Positions 5,753-43,971 of a stretch of DNA of 55,594 nucleotides are shown here, piece by piece. Origin of the DNA: a virus; IMG/VR virus record IMGVR_UViG_3300007770_000016, positions 1-55,594 of that record, one strand, 5' to 3'. Made by a program: the position numbers and the translations under genes. The notes below the pieces were generated by a model. That model saw nothing but the letters and a program-made list of their open reading frames with translations. It made no database searches and was not told the DNA's origin. The stretch's first letter is position 1. Each line of letters begins with the position of its first letter.

Positions 5753-6823
5753 ATGTCAATACATCAAGCACAGAAGAACGAGTTTCCCATTAAAAGGGAT
5801 CCTTCCCTACCACCACCCCCACAGAACCCGTACGAAACCGTAGCAATCCAAAGAGTTGTAGATTTAGAATTAAAATTCGAAGAACGCCTAAGAGAGATTA
5901 ACGGCACTCTTTTAGCTCTCGCCACCCACATCGAAAGTTTATCAACCCCCACTCAATCTAAGGTTTCACGGGAAGTAAGGAGGGTGTGGACCCCCGAGAA
6001 ATCCGATATGTTGTTGTGGAAGACAGATAAAGTGGGGGTTTCTTGGGATAACCACTATAAGGGAAGCAAGATATTTCTCGTGTGCGGAGGCCCCTCACTT
6101 AGCGACACTGATTTGTCGCTAATGGATAACCGTGGTGTAATGAGTATGTGTATGAATAATTCATGGTGTATGGTTAAGCCCGATATATGGATAGGATTTG
6201 ATTCTCCGGGAAGATTCCATAATGGGGGGTGGGAAGATCCTTCTATTATGAAAATAGTTCCGTGGCAAAGAAGAGAGGAAAAACTAACTCATAGAGTAAA
6301 CGGGGAATTACAACCTTCAGATTTGACCCCTTTAGATATGCCTAACTGTTGGATGCTCTCAAATAATACGACCTTTAATCCGGATACGTGGTTCACCGAA
6401 AAGTCTGCGAATTGGGGGGGTCCTATAGAAGGGGTAGAACCCGAGGGGGGATTCCGTGTAACTATGTTTGGGGCGTTAAGAACTCTTTATTATTTAGGGT
6501 TCCAAGAGGTTTACCTTTTAGGGTGTGACTGGGAGATGCCTACAGATATGAGTAAAGAAGCTTATGCGTGGGAAGAAAACAGAGCCCAGTCTGTAAGAGA
6601 AAAGAATAATGATATGTATCGGTGGTTAGAGGGAGGACTTAAAAAACTTCTACCGGGATTTGAGAGAGCAAATTTCCAAATCTACAACTGCAATCGAAAC
6701 TCTAAACTTTCTCTGTTCCCTTTTATTCAATACGAGGATGCAATAGAAAGATGTTCTATTCCTACACCTACTAACACTCGTGGTTGGTATGATATTCCTA
6801 ACAATAGGGACACTGAAAAATGA
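5753..6823 (+). CDS. DUF115/MptE-like glycosyltransferase-like protein (356 aa)
   Basis: The first 75 residues are helical. A Rossmann-like core then begins with a strand and glycine turn, LVCGGPSLSD (about 109-118), followed by MNN, PDIWIGFDSP and YLLGCDWEM (about 254-262). This pattern matches DUF115-type proteins, which in many phages lie beside sugar-transfer genes. A good Shine-Dalgarno sequence (AAGGAA) precedes the ATG. The gene overlaps the following glycosyltransferase-like gene by 4 nt and lies directly after the fibre genes. A role in modifying the fibre, or a host or phage glycan, is inferred. Confidence 0.6.
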   Translation: MSIHQAQKNEFPIKRDPSLPPPPQNPYETVAIQRVVDLELKFEERLREINGTLLALATHIESLSTPTQSKVSREVRRVWTPEKSDMLLWKTDKVGVSWDNHYKGSKIFLVCGGPSLSDTDLSLMDNRGVMSMCMNNSWCMVKPDIWIGFDSPGRFHNGGWEDPSIMKIVPWQRREEKLTHRVNGELQPSDLTPLDMPNCWMLSNNTTFNPDTWFTEKSANWGGPIEGVEPEGGFRVTMFGALRTLYYLGFQEVYLLGCDWEMPTDMSKEAYAWEENRAQSVREKNNDMYRWLEGGLKKLLPGFERANFQIYNCNRNSKLSLFPFIQYEDAIERCSIPTPTNTRGWYDIPNNRDTEK

Positions 6824-7410: not shown

Positions 7411-10400
7411 TGAACGAACGAAAGATTAAGTGGAATTATAACCTTGTAGGGACTTCCGAAGATAAATCAGGTACACGTACCTCTACACCTAGCAAGTCTT
7501 CCTACGAGGTGGTGGGTGTAGATATGTCTGTTAGGGGAGGCATTAGACCTTTTCCGGGATTTAAAAAAGTACATACTTTTACTTCTTTAAGAACGGAAAC
7601 TAACCATTCTTCTGCGTCCGAGGTTATAGATGTCTTCCCAATATCTTTTAGGGTAGGAACGGATCAATTTGGATATGGATTTGTTTATAGAGCAAAAAGA
7701 CCTGGGGATACTTCTGTATCAGATATTTATATGGACTATCGTATAGAAGGTAAAGATTCTGGTGCTTGGACCACAGGAGAAGATATTAAATTGGGGGTTG
7801 CTACCTCTGCACCCATGGATGTAGTTGTCTTTGGTAGATATGTCTACGTACTTGTAAAGGGAGAAGAACCTATTTTATTCTATGTGGGATATGGAGTATC
7901 TGCTGCTGCTGCTGGTTCTGTAACGATAGAGGCTTTTGGGAGTATCACAAAAGGTACACCCTCGACAGCTGATTTGGTAGTTGTTGATTACACTGCAATT
8001 GATACCGCAACACCAGATAATTTTAAGTTGAATCCTACAGATGGATCTGGGGTAATGACTTTTGAGGCTTCCGCTACAACTACAGACGCTACACATTTTA
8101 AAGTAGAACTCTCTAACGCCCAAACCGTAACAAACATTAGAACTATGCTACAACTAGCGGGGAATGAAAAATTTAATGCTGGACTACCCTCAGGATCAAC
8201 TATAACTATTTCCCAAAATGTTGGGGGTACTGCGGGAGATAAAGCAAATTCGACCACCTGTGCAGCGGGAATACTTACAATTGCAAACTTCACAGGGGGA
8301 GCCGGTACTGCAGATAGTATAGTACTTAAAAATACTGTTGGGCAATCTCGTATTATTCACGCGGGAACTGAAAATGAAAATTTCTCAACGAATAGTGTCA
8401 CGGATTATGCTGCCTTCAAACCCGAAACCGATAATCCCACAACCGCTACTAATCTCGCAACTGTTGTAAATGCACACACTAACTTTACAGCTTCAGAGGG
8501 ACAAAACTCTGTAAATATTAGTCAAGCCACAACTTCTATAAACGGTAATCAAGTTATAGGTTTAAATCTCACAGTTTCTACGTGTATAACCAAAGTAGAT
8601 TTTGAGGGAGGGGCAGGTGCGGGGTACGGAACTGATTACTTAAGAGTCATAGAAACCGATACTGGTCCCGGTTTACAACCCCCACTAATATCCCCTAATG
8701 ATACGGATGTAACCACTGTTGGTGCTTTAGATGTGTCCTCTGCTAGTTACCCATCAAATGCACAGGTGTTTACTGCTCAAACCGTAGGAAGTCACTGGTA
8801 TGCAACACCTGAAGATATGGACAATGTTGCGGATTTAGATAGTGGTGGTTATGGTGTTGCCTATTATCTAGAGGATCCCGATACAGGTAGAAAGACTAGT
8901 CTGTCTAAAGTTGCTATGGTTAAACCAGAAAATCTTGTGGAGAAAGCAACGGGCTCTATTACTTGTTTAGATAATGCCGAACAAAACTATGATGGGAAAA
9001 CTATCACTATTAAAGACCATGTGGATTATCCAGATAAAGGTAAACAGGTTGTATTTACTATAGATAGTGACACCTCGGGCACTGCTGTTAAAGTTTCTGA
9101 TACTTCATACACGATTAAGATTGATGGTGCTGCGGATAAAGAAGCAGTTGCTGCTCTTGTGCACGCAGGTATTGATCTTGCACACACCAATAACGATTTA
9201 AATATAACCCCCACTTATACAGCATCTACCGATGTTATTAACTTAACACACGATAAAGGTACTTTAGATGGTAATGCGACCATAAGTACGAGTGGGGGTG
9301 CTGTGTTTACAGTTGTAGGTATGACGGGTGCTGAAAATTTCGATCCGGGATATATTGGCCTTGAAATTGTTTATGACTCTACTAAATTTACAAAGGCTCG
9401 TATATTTAGATCGGTTAAACTTGAAGACGCTGGGGGTTCTTATGTAGCATCTGTAGTTCAACTAGATAAAATTATTACCCTTCAAGATTATTGGACTACA
9501 AATCAAGACGACCCAAGTACCGGGCTTCCTTTTGAAGATACAGCGGATGCCTTCGAAGATTATCGAAGGGCTATTTATTACTTTAGACTTTCGGATCTTG
9601 CTTTAATTTATCAAGATCCTTATGTAGATAGATCTATCTTTGATGAAAACATGTCAAAGGCTGGAACCGGAATTGAATTTGACGGAATACTTATTACTTC
9701 AAATTCATCTGGGGATTCAGGTTCTTCTCAATCAGATGGAGATAGTTCTACCGATAGGTTTAGGGGGGTAGGAGAGTTTCGTTGGTCTTCAATGGCTGAG
9801 TCTTCCCCAGAATTATTTCCACCCGAGAATTACTTTGTCCCTTCTAAAGTCTCTAATCATGTAGTTACATTTGAACGAAGTGCCGGAGCAGTTTTAGGAT
9901 TTGCAGAAAATATTATTATGCATATCTCCCGAGAGTTTACAGGTAATATCTCTTACATGAAAATCCTTCCTGTTCATGAAGGATATGGGATTGTAAATAA
10001 GAGAGCAACCGAGAGCGTTGGGCCCTTTACTTACTATATTAATAATAAAGGAATGAAATCTATAGATGCTCAGGGCAGACTAGATAGTTTACATGCTATA
10101 GATAAATTAGTGGAAGAGTGGGGGTCTGAGTATGGTTCACTTAGTATGGGGTACGACTCAGAATCTTCGGTGTTGTTTATTTTAAATTCGGCTCAGAAGA
10201 AAGCTGCGTGTATGTGGTTCAGTACTTCTTCGGTGTCTGAATTACATGATCTTCCTTTTGATTTAGTTAAGACAGGGGAGTGGCCTTCGGATTTAAATGA
10301 CCAAAATAGCGATTTAACGCAGAGAGCATTCTTCTTACAAAACGCTCCTAACCTTTCAGATACTCCTGCCCACTGGAGCCCTTGTGTTTGGATAGCAGAC

Positions 10401-14946: not shown

Positions 14947-15263
14947 TGGATTGGAAAAAGATTTCTCGAAAGTTAGTAGAAGACCATAAAGATAAAGGTT
15001 CTTCTATTATAAATTTAACCCCCCACTCTAAAGGGGGTGAGGTTGTTAATTTATCTACAGATGACTTTTGTTTAGAACTTACCGGGAAAGAACTATCTAC
15101 TAAAAAGGTTAGAAGGTTTTTGTGGGAGAATCGAAAGAAGAGGGCCCTCAACAGAAAACACGGAATCATCTGGTCAGCATACCTTGAAGATGAAGATAAG
15201 TCCTATGTTGGAGTGGGGGCTATTACAGACCCAAAAGTTGCAGCACGCATGGAAGGTAACTAA
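14946..15263 (+). CDS. Small hypothetical protein (105 aa)
   Basis: A basic protein with a Lys/Arg-rich middle (KKVRRFLWENRKKRALNRK, about 60-78) that suggests nucleic-acid or protein contact. It is locked into the operon, since both its start and its stop overlap neighbours by one base (TAATG). No family is recognised. It lies between an ejection-type protein and the SLOG-domain protein and may act with them. Confidence 0.55.
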   Translation: MDWKKISRKLVEDHKDKGSSIINLTPHSKGGEVVNLSTDDFCLELTGKELSTKKVRRFLWENRKKRALNRKHGIIWSAYLEDEDKSYVGVGAITDPKVAARMEGN

Positions 15264-17191
15264 TGCCTTCCGAAGATCAAATTTTAAGGCAGAAGATAGC
15301 AGATGCTATGGCTAATATTCAGAATGCCTTTACGGATCAATCATCTACATATAAAGGCAAAACCACGGTTAAGATGGACATGGATCTTAATTGGAAGGTA
15401 AAGACTTTTGATGGAAGAGTTATCCATAAAAAGGGACCTCGTAAGTTTACACAGAAAATGATTGTGTCTTTGTTAAGGGACAGACCCGATTTAATCGAGG
15501 ATATTAATTTATTAACTAACGGGTTACGAGGAGAAATGAGTAAGGGTGTAAGAAATCCATCCGGATTAAATATATCTCACGCCTCAAAGTTTTTAACAGG
15601 TTATCTTCCTGACGGAGGTACCTATCCAAAACCAAATCCTAACGCGGGTAGAGGTGTACATTTTCTGTTACCCCAAGCATGGATAGATCCGAAGAGGGGA
15701 TTGTTAACAAAACTTCGATCTGCTCTATTAAATAAGAATACGGTTAGAAAAATCTTAGAGATTCCCGGAGGGGAGACAAAGTTATCCCATCTAATTGTTA
15801 ACTTAGACAGGTTACTAGATACAACAGGTTCGGCTACTGTACAACCAGAAGGAATCGATCCCCTTAAAGCGGCTAAAGAAGAAAGAAACTACTTACGACA
15901 AGGACAACAAAGAGGAGCCTTCGCTCCTATTCCATCTGCTGATCCCACACCAACGAGACCTGTAGAATTAAGCAAAAAAGATTATGTAAAGCGTTTAATG
16001 CAGAGGAATTACTTTCAAATACAAAATGCAGATCGAGTAATTGCTGCTGCTCCTATAATCATTAATAATACTGCTGTTCAAGGCGGTACAAATGCTGCTG
16101 TTCAAATGGGAATTAATAAAGGTATTCCTGTTAACGTATTTAATTTAACTGATAATCTTTGGTACGAATGGCATGGGGATTCTGAGAAGTTTATAAAGTC
16201 ACAACCTCCTTCTCTCTCCCATACAAAACGGTTCGCGGGGATAGGTAGTCGCAGATTAACAAAGCAAGGTGAAAATGCAATAAGAGAATTGTTTAAAGGA
16301 CCTATACCTAAAGGATTAATAATAGATTCAGGAGGGGCTCGGGGTGCTGATACGTTGTTTGAAAATCTAGGGAAGAAAGCTGGTTATGAAGTAAAAGCTC
16401 ATTCCTTTGAAGGACACAGTACCACATCTAAAAATAGAGTGATTCATTCTGCAACAGAATTAAAAAAAGCCAATCCGTTTCTTAGACGAGGTGCTTCTTT
16501 ACTTGATTTCTATACTCCCGGAATAACACAGGTTGGAGATCGAGCATCTAGTGCCATGATACAAGAGTTGATGCGTAGGGGTTTATTGGAAGAAGGTAGA
16601 AGTGGAAAGTATTTAACTAGTGCCGAGGCTGGGTTATTGATTGATGCGGATATAGAAAAGGGTATATCAGAGGCTAGATCGAAAAGGGTAAGTACAAAAG
16701 ATCCCGTCTCAAGTTTGATTAAAACCGAACTTCCTAGTGGTAAAGTGACAGAGATAGGAGATATTGTAGAGGGGAGTAAAAAAGGAAAACCCATACCTTT
16801 TGGTTATGGCCCAAGCAAATATTTCGGTACTCCGGGAATTTCCCATCAATTAGATAAGACACCCACAAGTAATAAACAGTTTGAACACATTAAGAATATT
16901 TCTCGATTTAAATCTACTCTTCCAGGAACCAAGGTTAGTCCCATGATTAACCTTACGAACTGGATACAACAGTCTACCCAAGGTGGAGTGGGGGCTATTA
17001 ACGCTGCAGAGGCAACCGAATCTTTTGTTAAAGCAAAAACCTTCCCTGCAACATCGGAGTTTTTTACTAAGATACGTAAGCCAATACATTTATCTAGAGC
17101 TGCTAGGGGGTTACCATTAATTGCAATCCCCCTACTATTAGCAGGATTTTTTGGTACTATGAACGAAGATAGGGAATTACCCGTAAGTTAA
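15263..17191 (+). CDS. SLOG-domain virion-region protein with hydrophobic C-terminus (642 aa)
   Basis: Three SLOG/DprA-like elements are visible. NADRVIAAAPI leads to GGTNAAVQMGINKGIPV (about residues 258-288), the part that normally closes such domains. Then come FAGIGSRRL (324-332) and SGGARGAD (356-363), which normally open it. The halves are therefore in swapped order, either a circular permutation or two partial domains. SLOG proteins bind nucleotides or nucleotide-derived signals. A hydrophobic segment (RGLPLIAIPLLLAGFFG, about 614-630) ends the protein, as in other proteins of this arm. Its place among ejection-type genes suggests it is packaged and delivered to the cell; this is inferred. 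Confidence 0.6.
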   Translation: MPSEDQILRQKIADAMANIQNAFTDQSSTYKGKTTVKMDMDLNWKVKTFDGRVIHKKGPRKFTQKMIVSLLRDRPDLIEDINLLTNGLRGEMSKGVRNPSGLNISHASKFLTGYLPDGGTYPKPNPNAGRGVHFLLPQAWIDPKRGLLTKLRSALLNKNTVRKILEIPGGETKLSHLIVNLDRLLDTTGSATVQPEGIDPLKAAKEERNYLRQGQQRGAFAPIPSADPTPTRPVELSKKDYVKRLMQRNYFQIQNADRVIAAAPIIINNTAVQGGTNAAVQMGINKGIPVNVFNLTDNLWYEWHGDSEKFIKSQPPSLSHTKRFAGIGSRRLTKQGENAIRELFKGPIPKGLIIDSGGARGADTLFENLGKKAGYEVKAHSFEGHSTTSKNRVIHSATELKKANPFLRRGASLLDFYTPGITQVGDRASSAMIQELMRRGLLEEGRSGKYLTSAEAGLLIDADIEKGISEARSKRVSTKDPVSSLIKTELPSGKVTEIGDIVEGSKKGKPIPFGYGPSKYFGTPGISHQLDKTPTSNKQFEHIKNISRFKSTLPGTKVSPMINLTNWIQQSTQGGVGAINAAEATESFVKAKTFPATSEFFTKIRKPIHLSRAARGLPLIAIPLLLAGFFGTMNEDRELPVS

Positions 17192-35098: not shown

Positions 35099-35380
35099 TT
35101 ATTCCTCAAATTTTTCAAGATCATCTTCGTATTCCATGAACGCTTCGATGCTTGCTACTGTGTCTGCTATATCCTCCATCCTTAGAGTGGGGGGTTTAAC
35201 TATTATTGGAACATCTTTAAAGTGTTGTATGTAAGTAGACATCCGATTGTAATCAAGTTTTGCTCTTATTATTTGATCGGTTACTTTTTCGATTAATTCA
35301 AGCATTTCTTCTTTTTGCAGTAAAAGATTATCAATTTCAGCTAATAATATTTGTACTTCGGGATGGTCACGGAGATTCAT
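35099..35380 (-). CDS. Coiled-coil hypothetical protein (93 aa)
   Basis: A largely helical acidic protein with a leucine-rich coiled coil (VQILLAEIDNLLLQKEEMLE, about 9-28) and a Glu/Asp-rich end. The SD is weak. It overlaps the glycosylase gene by 14 nt and ends 3 nt before the polymerase gene, so it may be a small polymerase- or repair-associated factor. No family recognised. Confidence 0.5.
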   Translation of the reverse strand: MNLRDHPEVQILLAEIDNLLLQKEEMLELIEKVTDQIIRAKLDYNRMSTYIQHFKDVPIIVKPPTLRMEDIADTVASIEAFMEYEDDLEKFEE

Positions 35381-36122
35381 TTGGACTTCTTGTGGGTATA
35401 ATTTCAGGTTTCGAGGGTGATGCCATTGTTCCGTCTACACAGTCGCTTATAAGTTGCATGTGAGAGTGTACACTATTTATGCGATTATTGTTTCGAAGTA
35501 CTGCAGCAGGATGGTATGTTGAGAATACATTGAATCCCCCCACTCCATCTATCTTGTGGTCTTCTTGATCGTAATGGTTTCCGTTTAATGCGAATGATTT
35601 GGTTAGAGTTATTTTTGGGATTCCGAGTATATTTTTGTAGAAAGAGGTTGTCATCGGTGCACCTAATGTGAGTATTATGTTTGGTCTATATCTTTGTAAA
35701 TCGTTTATTAAGTATTGGTTACATTCTATATAGTGTCGGGGTTTAGGTGTTTCGTTGTTTGTAGTGTGACAACGGACTCCATTTCCTAGATAGATGTGAG
35801 TTCTTTCTTGGAGGTTTGTCCCTCCAATGTAAGATTCTTTTAGGATGTTTCCGCTTCTACCCACAAAAGGTTTGCCTTGTCGGTCTTCATGAAAGCCAGG
35901 ATTCTGGCCTAGGATGAGGAGGACAGGACAAAACCTTTCGAGTAAATCTACTGAATTAATATAGTGAATTGTTGGTAAACAAACGGTGTTTGCTTGTTCG
36001 TGTAATTCACACTTTATACAGTGGGGATTATCCCCTTGGCATTGGTGGGTAGAAATCGTCGAGGAGTTCTTCGTAATCTTGTTGTTCTTCCAAAGTTCCG
36101 TCTGTTGGCGGCTCATGGTCAC
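35367..36122 (-). CDS. Family-4 (Fe-S) uracil-DNA glycosylase-like protein (251 aa)
   Basis: Motif A GQNPGFHED (72-80) leads into GKPFVGRSG, and motif B is YHPAAVLR (203-210). The four Cys pattern of family-4 enzymes is complete: C35-x2-C38 and C118-x15-C134, expected to hold a [4Fe-4S] cluster. Family members remove uracil from DNA. GQNPG replaces the more common GExPG, which may change activity. GTG at 36122 with AAAGGAG upstream is the likely start, although it overlaps the previous gene by 95 nt. The enzyme sits next to the DNA polymerase and probably acts during phage replication or repair. Confidence 0.8.
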   Translation of the reverse strand: MTMSRQQTELWKNNKITKNSSTISTHQCQGDNPHCIKCELHEQANTVCLPTIHYINSVDLLERFCPVLLILGQNPGFHEDRQGKPFVGRSGNILKESYIGGTNLQERTHIYLGNGVRCHTTNNETPKPRHYIECNQYLINDLQRYRPNIILTLGAPMTTSFYKNILGIPKITLTKSFALNGNHYDQEDHKIDGVGGFNVFSTYHPAAVLRNNNRINSVHSHMQLISDCVDGTMASPSKPEIIPTRSPNESP

Positions 36123-41058: not shown

Positions 41059-41505
41059 TTACGATTTTGGAATGCCACCGGTTGTTGTTCCTGCACTGCT
41101 AGTTGCCTTTCTAGGAGGAATTTCTTCAAGACCTTGCATTTTGGCTACTTCACGACAAAGTTGGTCACCGTTTACGAAGTACATAACTTGCATCATGCCA
41201 CCATCAGTTACTGGACGATAACCAAATGCTTTTTTATCTACGCCATTTTTATCTTTGTAAGCACCTACTTGTGTGCCTGTGCTCCATAGTGATAAACTAC
41301 CTTGTTCACCAACGGGCTTTGTAGCATCCCATTGGCACTGCATATCACGAAAATCAAGAAGGCTATGTTCACCAATCTGAACACCTTTACCTGTGAGTTT
41401 CGTAATTAATGCTGAAGAACCACTGTTTGCTTGGGCTTCTTTTCGAGCTTCGGCACTTACTTCGACTGTTGCATTCCCTGCAACTGGGGTTGTATCTTTA
41501 CTCAT
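41059..41505 (-). CDS. Hypothetical protein, possibly DNA-associated (148 aa)
   Basis: The N-terminus is disordered-looking and Ala/Ser-rich, a beta-rich core follows (about 50-125, VQIGEHSLLDFRDMQCQWD; SLSLWSTGTQVGAYKDK), and the C-terminus is Ser/Thr/Gly-rich and flexible. AGGAG precedes the ATG. It stands alone between two non-coding gaps, so it is probably expressed strongly or independently. A beta core with a flexible tail could suit an SSB or similar, but no family is recognised. Confidence 0.5.
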   Translation of the reverse strand: MSKDTTPVAGNATVEVSAEARKEAQANSGSSALITKLTGKGVQIGEHSLLDFRDMQCQWDATKPVGEQGSLSLWSTGTQVGAYKDKNGVDKKAFGYRPVTDGGMMQVMYFVNGDQLCREVAKMQGLEEIPPRKATSSAGTTTGGIPKS

Positions 41506-42279
41506 TTTGTTTTACTCCTATGTAAATGTTAATATTGAGTATTGTAATTTGATAACGAATTCAAAAAACGAAAAAGAATACACCCAACAACGATGTTTGC
41601 GGAAGCCGCGGTCAAGATTGAACCACCTTCACAAAACACGCGAGTCCGCGAGCGTAGTATGGTGGTTCGCGGGAACCGCCTTTTAACCGAACCAGTAAGG
41701 ACAATGGCCGCGAAGTCCGAACGGTTCGGCTTAAAAGTTGACCGCCTGTATGGCTTCCGCAGTTGAGCCTCTGTGTTGTTCGTGTCTTTCGTATAGTTTC
41801 CATTGTTCTTTAGTTGTCCAGTTTTGTAGCCCGTTCTGCCCGTGTTGTCCCCGCACGTACACCCGTGCCGAGTCGGTGTGTGTACAGCCCTCCAAGTTTA
41901 AAATCGGGGTACCCCCATCGCCCCCTGTGCCGATTCCCAATATGGTGAAGAAACACCGATCCTGTCTAGGAATTTTTCGGTTATATACTTTACAAAACCC
42001 TAACAAGTACGTCCAATAACTATTCCGATCCAGTCTTGTACCGGGTATGTACCGGATGGATTTTTTTAAAAGGGCCCTTTTTACCTCTTTAAACCCCTCT
42101 TGAACCGCATGAACCGGGTGATCCAGGTATTTCTTAAAACTTAAAGTGTAAGGATCTATATATAAAGAGTTTTGGAAAATACCCGGATCATGCGGTACAC
42201 CCGGATCAAACCCCAATTCTAGCCTAAAAAGGCGGTTTCACCTAATTCACAAACTGGATCACTACCCGGTTCACCCGGT
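41506..42279. other. GC-rich, repeat-rich region: candidate replication origin
   Basis: This 774-bp stretch is clearly richer in G+C than its surroundings. The word ACCCGG(A/T)TCA occurs at 42181-42190, 42199-42208, 42264-42273 and 42273-42282, and inverted at 42110-42119, with a variant at 42037-42046, an iteron-like cluster. Inverted repeats include GAACCACC/GGTGGTTC (41620-41627, 41661-41668), GGTTC/GAACC (41664-41677) and the near-palindrome CCGAACGGTTCGG (41717-41729). It lies just downstream of the SF3 helicase and a small gene. The only long frame inside it is weak. Confidence 0.5.
41731..42216 (-). CDS. Doubtful 161-aa frame within the candidate origin
   Basis: An open frame with only a TTG start, no SD and no Met after the first residue; the N-terminal DPGVPHDPGI is simply the translation of the ACCCGGATCA repeats. 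The C-terminal part (YERHEQHRGSTAEAIQAV) looks more protein-like. It may be a decayed gene or chance. Without it, the region from 41506 to 42279 is empty. Confidence 0.25.
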   Translation of the reverse strand: MGFDPGVPHDPGIFQNSLYIDPYTLSFKKYLDHPVHAVQEGFKEVKRALLKKSIRYIPGTRLDRNSYWTYLLGFCKVYNRKIPRQDRCFFTILGIGTGGDGGTPILNLEGCTHTDSARVYVRGQHGQNGLQNWTTKEQWKLYERHEQHRGSTAEAIQAVNF

Positions 42280-42546
42280 TCACCCACCCAAGCTCTTAGG
42301 TTTTGGTATCTCAAGTACTTCTTTAGTCTCTAAGCAATACAAAACAAACCCAAAATCTTTTTTCCAAACATCCCATATCAAACCATCCTCATCTACCAAC
42401 TCATCACCATCTCGGTATTTAATTCGTAAGTGAGCCCACAACTCAGCGGGGTCCGCGTCTCTAGGAGAATGTAGATCTTTATCCATAAGCAATATATTCG
42501 ATATTCTAGTCCTACAACTAAATAAGACATCCATTGGTACTTCCAT
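42280..42546 (-). CDS. Hypothetical protein next to the helicase (88 aa)
   Basis: The start at 42546 is chosen, with AGAAGGAG upstream. The protein reads MEVPMDVLFSCRTRISNILL, then an acidic middle (KYRDGDELVDEDGLIWDVWK) and a Lys/Pro end. It lies 18 nt downstream of the helicase gene and may be a helicase partner. No family recognised. Confidence 0.5.
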   Translation of the reverse strand: MEVPMDVLFSCRTRISNILLMDKDLHSPRDADPAELWAHLRIKYRDGDELVDEDGLIWDVWKKDFGFVLYCLETKEVLEIPKPKSLGG

Positions 42547-42564: not shown

Positions 42565-43971
42565 TTAACACAAGTCTTCAAACTTTTTACGTAGGCTTAA
42601 ACCTTTTAAGCCCCTCTTACCCCCATGCGGTCTGTGTCTATTTACGGTCCAACTACTTTGCATCTCTATCTTTATCGACAATTGATTCCTTGCGACATGA
42701 ACATTCTTAATCGAATTCGATTTTAACCAGTCTTTCCATTGCATCCACAACAAATCCGTAGCAACAAACCCCCCCTCACTTCTTATAAACCTCTCCTCTA
42801 AAAAATGATCGAACGGATTATTCTGAAGATGATACATCTGCACCGCATCTTCAGATTGTGACAACATAGGGAACCTTCCCCCTACTCCACCTTCTAAATC
42901 AATAGCCCCTTCTACCGCCCACGCTGCGATCCCCTCCAACTCTCCAATCAACGTATCAATCAAATATGGATCTTCCTTCCCCTCAAAACTAACATTAAAT
43001 GGTAACACTAACATCTTAGATGACAGTCCCCTACCCTTATTAGGCAACTGCGGAATCTCATTAGCCTGAACAATCGGTGCAGCATTCAACACGACATTTC
43101 TCATCTGTCTCTTATATTTCACATTAACAGTAACGGGGTCCTGACCAATAATGTTCTTTAACACCCGTGTAGCCTTCTCACCCTCCCTCCCATTCAACTC
43201 ACTAACCTCACTAACACAAAGCACCCTAGAATGCTCCAACCCATCCAACCCAAAACTATCACTTAAATCATCGAGACTAGTATTCATAAACCCATCACCC
43301 CCCAACAATCTCTGCAACACCTTCCCAATAGTGCCCTTACCACTCCTAACCTTCCCATACATAAGTAACCATCTAGCATGTCTCCTATGGTTCATCAAAC
43401 AATAACCCATCCATCTCATCAACAACATACTCCACTCCGGATCGTTGTCCCCCCACTCTTCTAAGCACTTCATCCATCTCGGGCACTCAGCACCCGGATT
43501 ATAGCTTACAGGCAATATTACCGGATCAAACCAATCTTCCGTTCTCTCCATAACTTCACCCGTCTTCGCATCCACAAGTTTATCTTGAAACGCAATTACA
43601 CTTCCCGCATCCTTTCCCGGATTATCCAACCACAACGGTATATTAGAGTGGGGGATTCTTACCCTCGCTGCTAAACCTCTCACGATATTATCTATCTTTT
43701 GTTTGTTAGGTGCGACCCTACGAATACGAGGGATGCCGTCTGTGCCCATGTCTTGGTAATGAGCATCTTCAAGTTCTTTCCAACAAAGATCTTCTACCCA
43801 CTCCTGATCTCGTCTTTCCCAACGATCCCCGTACCATTGGTAAAAGTCTCCGCGGAAAGCCCATAAACCCGTCTTACCGTTAGGTGTACGAAATACACTT
43901 CTTAAAAGTGCGTCTGCTATCTTCATGGGTTCTACGGAAGTTAGTGGTTGGTCTTGAGTTCCAACTGTCAT
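42565..43971 (-). CDS. D5-like superfamily-3 replicative helicase (468 aa)
   Basis: The N-terminal half resembles the D5_N region of phage/plasmid P4-type primase-helicases (WAFRGDFYQWYGDRW; IAFQDKLVDAKTGE; PVSYNPGAECPRW). Walker A is GKVRSGKGT (206-214), Walker B VLCVSEVSE (250-258), and a sensor motif NAAPIVQANEIP follows (296-307), the set of SF3 helicases. They unwind DNA as hexamers at the origin. The primase domain usually fused in front is absent, so priming must come from another protein or the host. It is the first gene of the reverse arm, with AAAGGA before the ATG. Confidence 0.85.
   Translation of the reverse strand: MTVGTQDQPLTSVEPMKIADALLRSVFRTPNGKTGLWAFRGDFYQWYGDRWERRDQEWVEDLCWKELEDAHYQDMGTDGIPRIRRVAPNKQKIDNIVRGLAARVRIPHSNIPLWLDNPGKDAGSVIAFQDKLVDAKTGEVMERTEDWFDPVILPVSYNPGAECPRWMKCLEEWGDNDPEWSMLLMRWMGYCLMNHRRHARWLLMYGKVRSGKGTIGKVLQRLLGGDGFMNTSLDDLSDSFGLDGLEHSRVLCVSEVSELNGREGEKATRVLKNIIGQDPVTVNVKYKRQMRNVVLNAAPIVQANEIPQLPNKGRGLSSKMLVLPFNVSFEGKEDPYLIDTLIGELEGIAAWAVEGAIDLEGGVGGRFPMLSQSEDAVQMYHLQNNPFDHFLEERFIRSEGGFVATDLLWMQWKDWLKSNSIKNVHVARNQLSIKIEMQSSWTVNRHRPHGGKRGLKGLSLRKKFEDLC

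Follow-up and report, generated by a model that had tools for sequence, protein, structure and literature searches.

A putative replication origin behind the D5-type SF3 helicase gene of an uncultured phage group

The genome IMGVR_UViG_3300007770_000016 carries a repeat-rich stretch behind the gene of an SF3 helicase, which raises the question whether replication of this phage starts there and, if so, which elements the initiator would recognize. The record comprises 55,594 bases (the window: the whole stretch of DNA that was analysed) and the 119 bases at its start recur identically at its end, so that the genome closes as a 55,475-bp circle. A sequence-only reading had proposed that the non-coding region is a phage origin served by the neighbouring helicase. 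Our analysis sides with this proposal on account of the location, the inverted repeat arrays around an AT-rich core, the repeat words and the helicase helix that change together, and the fold of the helicase, which resembles that of SaPI5 Rep. Within the region, a module that resembles an origin (about 41908-42282) is distinct from a stretch that can fold (41598-41761). From comparative sequence analysis we consider it likely (probability roughly 0.8) that the module is the replication origin of the phage and is read by the adjacent D5-type SF3 helicase.

The helicase and its genomic setting

The genome encodes a D5-type SF3 helicase, a PolA-family polymerase, nucleases, and phage tail and terminase genes; the gene directions diverge at about 44.0 kb and converge at about 25.1 kb. 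The proposed initiator (42565-43971, minus strand; 468 aa) was identified by Pfam, PHROG and structure matches. It carries a D5_N domain and the SF3 P-loop signature (PF08706, 1e-8; PF19263, 8.5e-12) and matches primase/helicase profiles of PHROG (down to 1e-56). The best fold match is SaPI5 Rep (E 9e-19), the entry of which (7ola) is also matched in sequence (1.3e-13), and large T is a weak sequence match (E 0.026). In the AlphaFold2 model (mean pLDDT 83) residues 385-459 form the succession helix-strand-helix-helix-strand-strand (block means about 78-91), and by our reading of this model the C-terminus (about residues 385-459) is predicted to be a winged-helix DNA-binding domain. An N-terminal origin-binding domain was not found, the residues that precede the ATPase matching D5_N in Pfam, and Pfam recovered no AEP domain within the protein.

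Between the helicase gene and the module lies a gene for an 88-aa protein (42280-42546, minus strand) that is conserved in the relatives and has no known family in Pfam or PHROG. The gene upstream of the helicase is divergent and encodes a 691-aa protein without a Pfam or PHROG match, and the PolA-family gene is located 7.5 kb away from the helicase. Among the 39 distinct ORFs that were given to PHROGs no primase was named other than the helicase's own family. We found no tRNA genes and no close cultured phage: the best helicase match had about 27% identity and the terminase had no match. The replication genes include one for a Uracil-DNA-glycosylase family protein (35367-36122, minus strand; PF03167, 5e-22). 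Elsewhere on the plus strand, a 642-aa protein with a short DprA-like PHROG match is encoded among the presumed virion genes (15263-17191), and the protein of 5753-6823 weakly matches a phage sialyltransferase-like PHROG.

Parts of the module and their conservation

The five exact ACCCGG(A/T)TCA words reported for this region were all recovered: four on the plus strand (42181, 42199, 42264 and 42273) and one on the minus strand (42110-42119), together spanning 173 bp (42110-42282). A sixth copy occurs in the genome at 3934. The 9-base core ACCCGGWTC is found seven times in the genome, five of them within 42110-42282, compared to a mean of 0.51 in total in 300 genome shuffles (dinucleotide blocks), none of which placed two of them within 175 bp of each other; the clustering is far above chance. 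The inverted repeats are equally present, the array at 42101-42129 being inverted with respect to 42181-42208 and 42263-42282 (19-20 bp, 89-90%). The higher G+C content ascribed to the region is real but modest (45.6% versus 40.9% for the genome) and does not extend to the core between the arrays, where it drops to 21.6%.

Read in the orientation of the helicase, the module is composed of an iteron array, the AT-rich core, an inverted array, a third array, a conserved box, a spacer and a G-box. An outer pair of iterons (42264-42282, plus strand), formed by two copies of ACCCGGTTC at a pitch of 9 bp, shares bases with the stop codon of the 88-aa gene. The left array, on the helicase side of the core (42181-42208, plus strand), contains three units with the same 9-bp pitch, ACCCGGATC-ATGCGGTAC-ACCCGGATC, and the right array (42101-42129, minus strand), inverted to the left one, reads ACCTGGATC-ACCCGGTTC-ATGCGGTTC. 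These two enclose the AT-rich core (42130-42180; 51 bp), which includes TATATATA and is the proposed melting region. The third array (42026-42059, minus strand) has an 11-bp pitch (ATCCGGTAC, ACCCGGTAC, CTGGATC). It is followed, on the minus strand, by a conserved 26-bp box, AAATTCCTAGACAGGATCGGTGTTTC, of which the genome has a single copy (41950-41975), by a 24-bp spacer (41926-41949) and by the G-box GGGGGCGATGGGGGTACC (41908-41925). The general pattern in helicase orientation is AAATTCCTAGACAGG..TTTC, then 24 unconserved base pairs, then GGGGGC.

Relatives were collected with the helicase of the window (14) and with a helicase alignment (63, overlap counted once). Inspection of the DNA after the helicase gene (sets of 10 and 19 loci and of 39 sequences) showed the same order of parts in all of these, and a TATA-rich core was also visible in the relatives inspected in this way. 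A profile of the box module, seeded on eight boxes of the window clade and extended twice, recognized the module in the window and in 58 of the 63 relatives. Each time it lay on the strand of the helicase, some 150-1270 bp beyond that gene, and it was matched only once per locus (no second match at E<1). The extension drew on the same set of sequences, so that the E-values obtained after it are partly self-fulfilling; in a search with the seed only, the best match of every locus that had one (E up to 0.77) lay at the same place and on the same strand even before the extension. The five misses (L034, L054, L057, L082 and L085) can be attributed to too little sequence after the helicase, of which 333, 184, 78, 0 and 27 bp, respectively, were present. 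In two of the relatives about 650-750 bp of extra DNA separates the arrays from the small gene (L003, about 7700-8400; L010, about 7740-8420), and the module is thereby displaced to +1263 in L003 and +1226 in L010, counted from the helicase.

The association with the helicase was also recovered from the box alone. Three pattern scans of IMG/VR for the box, in which the helicase was not used, yielded 40 stretches (7, 20 and 13); the 7 of the first scan were all located on helicase-bearing contigs of the 14-relative set, and all stretches that were checked and recognized by the profile carry the helicase or derive from a helicase-bearing contig. Four others (L123, L126, L128 and L135) were rejected as chance pattern matches that have neither module nor helicase. 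The module was found (E 9e-5) on a contig of a metagenome-assembled genome binned as Myxococcales, with a helicase of 47% identity, and this contig keeps the arrays, the core, the box and the spacing of 24 bp from TTTC to GGGG. The profile did not detect the module in L099-L103, the cultured phages whose helicases come closest (26-30% identity), and a nucleotide search of phage records with the module gave only two short, unrelated matches.

The alignment of 39 module sequences comprises 88 columns without gaps, despite the unconserved 24 bp between TTTC and GGGGG. Within the window clade the length of the spacer is constant and its sequence is not, each of the eight seeds having exactly 24 bp from TTTC to the G-run; the run begins one or two bases earlier in some GC-rich relatives. 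A constant length with a variable sequence suggests contacts along a single DNA helix, not an RNA. The combination of repeats, a core that should melt readily and a motif with fixed spacing, which dozens of distant relatives have at one and the same place, very probably marks the start of replication.

The arrays themselves follow a shared design with words that differ between clades. Exact 5-mers repeated at a lag of 9 occurred 61 times, in 31 of the 39 loci (none in the remaining 8), against a mean of 6.5 for other lags and a maximum of 11 over 100 shuffles, where the loci are homologous and the counts therefore not independent; the control in shifted regions was not flat and gave 8 to 28 repeats, with the maximum within the helicase gene. 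Inverted 8-mers were present in 21 of the 39 loci (at most 11 in 60 shuffles). By eye, the inspected loci were assigned to clades with iteron words of the GGWWC type (the window clade), CCGGCA, GGTAC/GGTAT and TGTCAG. Both arms carry the word of their own clade, in inverted orientation, and when the word changes the two arms change together; left and right arm shared on average 3.05 6-mers within a locus, 2.82 between loci of the same clade and 1.17 between clades, a comparison for which the automatic choice of the AT-core was wrong in at least one locus (L026). A third array was visible in the TGTCAG clade as well as in the window clade and is not common to all clades. The sequence-only reading had named as a check whether relatives keep the words, and the outcome speaks for the origin: it is the architecture that is conserved, with words particular to each clade.

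The second helix of the C-terminal domain of the helicase differs along with the words: its sequence is VARNQLSIKIE for the window clade and VPRNQIALQIE, or nearly so, for the CCGGCA clade, whereas most GGTAC/T loci have the NM-type and the TGTCAG clade has VADNQL. Such clade-specific residues in the predicted recognition helix would fit a recognition of the iterons by the helicase, where the clades of helicase and iterons are phylogenetically confounded and the co-variation is therefore not independent evidence of contact.

Comparison with known origins

The SF3 helicases large T of SV40 and E1 of papillomaviruses have sites that lie symmetrically beside an AT-rich stretch and are loaded as double hexamers. 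The module shares the working principle of helicase sites beside an AT-rich stretch with these origins and has no sites in common with them. The iterons of SaPI origins flank an AT-rich stretch on both sides as well. According to PMC7581432, the origin-binding domain of large T and E1 is N-terminal, whereas the candidate domain of the phage helicase is C-terminal. SaPI Rep and SCCmec Cch2 are described as D5/MCM-like helicases that recognize, through a C-terminal domain, iterons just downstream of their genes, and that perhaps act as two hexamers (PMC7581432).

The likeness to the SaPI origins (SaPI5, SaPIbov1; PMC7581432) thus lies in a site directly downstream of the helicase gene, in an array of short repeated words and in a D5-type helicase with a C-terminal candidate domain. 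In contrast to these origins, the module belongs to a 55-kb phage and not to an island, it has the additional box-24 bp-G-box element, and neither a recognized primase nor a PolA-SSB pair is located upstream of, beside or fused to the helicase, which stands alone; we therefore do not class it as a SaPI origin, only as one that would work like it. The putative SCCmec origin of Cch2 shares the helicase-only protein and the iterons downstream of its gene, and its 5-nt iterons occur as three in a stretch of 23 bp (PMC7581432), which in our view would fit a 9-bp pitch. One short direct-repeat stretch binds Cch2 in that system, as given there, whereas the phage module has facing inverted arrays over an AT-rich core, a third array and the box. 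The system thus differs from SaPI and SCCmec in that it belongs to a phage, its arrays face each other around the core, its helicase stands alone, and it includes the box-24 bp-G-box. In pRN1 and a phage called BIP-1 in PMC4234260, an essential region likewise lies 3' of a primase/SF3-helicase gene; as reported there, a single 100-bp stem-loop is required and the iterons of the phage were judged not to be the origin. The module departs from this type by its paired iteron arrays and fixed-spacing box, by the absence of an AEP domain in the Pfam results and by a box region without a common fold.

Given the fold match to SaPI5 Rep and the use of iterons by the SaPI and SCCmec helicases, the simplest account is an iteron origin with a self-loading helicase. 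The C-terminal winged helix would bind the iterons with one unit per subunit, two hexamers would be loaded face to face across the AT-rich core, and ATP-driven melting of the core followed by 3'-to-5' translocation would open the forks without a separate loader. The box and G-box might, more speculatively, be a second site of protein contact whose fixed geometry makes the origin directional, for example through the positioning of a polymerase or primase for the first strand. Tentatively, box, 24-bp spacer and G-box could be a hitherto undescribed origin element that docks polymerase or primase and provides a defined start to a helicase-only initiator with no recognizable primase, in which case the reversed strand composition described below would be its trace. 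A description of this box or origin was not found in the open-licence literature that was searched.

The origins of phages with D5-type helicases have rarely been defined, and for this one the parts could be named from comparative sequence alone. With these parts, with natural variants in which iteron words and recognition helix differ together, and with a second conserved element that matched nothing known in the searches made, both origin recognition by self-loading helicases and the steps after melting become directly testable through exchanges between natural clades. The module can moreover serve as a marker for origins in an uncultured phage group that lacks close cultured relatives.

Strand composition and alternative explanations

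At 4-fold sites of the coding strand the helicase gene (+0.58) and the 88-aa gene (+0.33) are G-rich, and most genes beyond the module, transcribed in the same direction, are C-rich. A positive helicase and a negative downstream set were found in 34 of 40 rows (relatives and window; 6 deviate), the 40 being what remained of 44 after removal of those in which helicase or downstream set was empty (L043, L058, L066 and L074) and including some near-duplicates (e.g. L025/L026, L041/L042 and L062/L063). In the full contigs of six relatives and in the window the skew peaks beside the module and fades in about 10-15 kb; in three contigs (G006, G008 and G012) it continues through the left-hand genes of opposite direction, and so follows position and not gene direction. 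The module is a pivot of strand composition. In bacteria the leading strand is G-rich, and the sign at the module is opposite to that of a bacterial-type origin. The earlier expectation of a skew minimum was borne out in one respect, the conserved strand switch at the module, and not in the other, as the cumulative GC skew of the plus strand has a local maximum there. The pivot supports a role in replication, its sign aside.

Under the bacterial rule this sign would suit converging forks, and the module might then be a replication end or a genome cut, that is a site of fork convergence, packaging or recombination. Contig ends are also more frequent within 1 kb after the helicase (15 of 63) than within 1 kb before it (5 of 63), an excess that is probably due to assembly breaks between conserved and variable DNA; the ends are scattered. 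The genes on both sides mostly point away from 42-44 kb, which suits departing forks. The window closes via its 119-bp repeat at 13.5 kb from the module, and contig G010 (that of L059) has a self-overlap of 248 bp (246 identical) that spans the module, which leaves no fixed end at this position. The terminase gene lies 5 kb off, behind a gene of the other direction, and termini would leave the AT-rich core and the linkage to the helicase unexplained; we regard this explanation as improbable. Somewhat better placed, though still unlikely, is control of transcription, with the arrays as operators and the AT-rich core and box as the promoter of an early operon starting at 41505. The module sits between two genes of the same direction, several relatives have a terminator-like hairpin with T-runs before it, and a weak sigma-70 match (TAGACA-18-CATATT) falls on the box; the arms could equally be operators. 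Promoter-like sites are, however, not in excess (2, versus 2.3 in shuffles), the box is single-copy and the would-be -10 position unconserved. It is the helicase, and no regulator gene, that is constant beside the module, and a promoter does not explain a switch of strand composition between genes of the same direction. A promoter may coexist with the origin.

That the region encodes a non-coding RNA or holds a decayed gene, as the sequence-only reading had considered, is the least probable explanation, to be given hardly any weight. In its favour, the neighbouring 41598-41761 folds strongly (z -6.6, a value flattered by the choice of windows for lowest energy), as do some relatives at that place. 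At the box itself the fold of the window is unremarkable (z -0.4), RNAalifold predicted no pair over the 39 module sequences, and 88 gap-free columns with an unconserved spacer would be unusual for an RNA. Against Rfam, with a threshold of E 1, the region had no matches other than chance ones to microRNAs, and the whole window had no match at gathering scores. The same reading had seen no convincing gene here, and indeed the 161-aa frame (41731-42216, minus strand) lacks a match in Pfam, PHROG or, by tblastn, in phage records. This frame is not kept in the relatives, 35 of the 59 module-bearing sequences having a stop inside the 88 conserved columns, which leaves the idea of a decayed gene without support.

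The foldable stretch at 41598-41761 lies outside the module, just before a gene for a 148-aa protein. On the minus strand it is predicted to adopt a large multi-branched fold (-83 kcal/mol over 181 nt) that is closed by TGCGGAAGCC/GGCTTCCGCA. Strong folds that do not share its sequence occur at the same place in several relatives (best-window z, flattered in the same way: L010 -9.0, L005 -7.8, L003 -4.8, L001 -4.0, L014 -3.8), and in others the folds are weak (L009 -1.9, L007 -1.7, L008 -0.4). A manA RNA (RF01745; 73.8 bits, above the gathering score), absent from the window, was found in two relatives (L001:9962-10154 and L026:7962-8154), at an intergenic site about 2.5 kb after the helicase.
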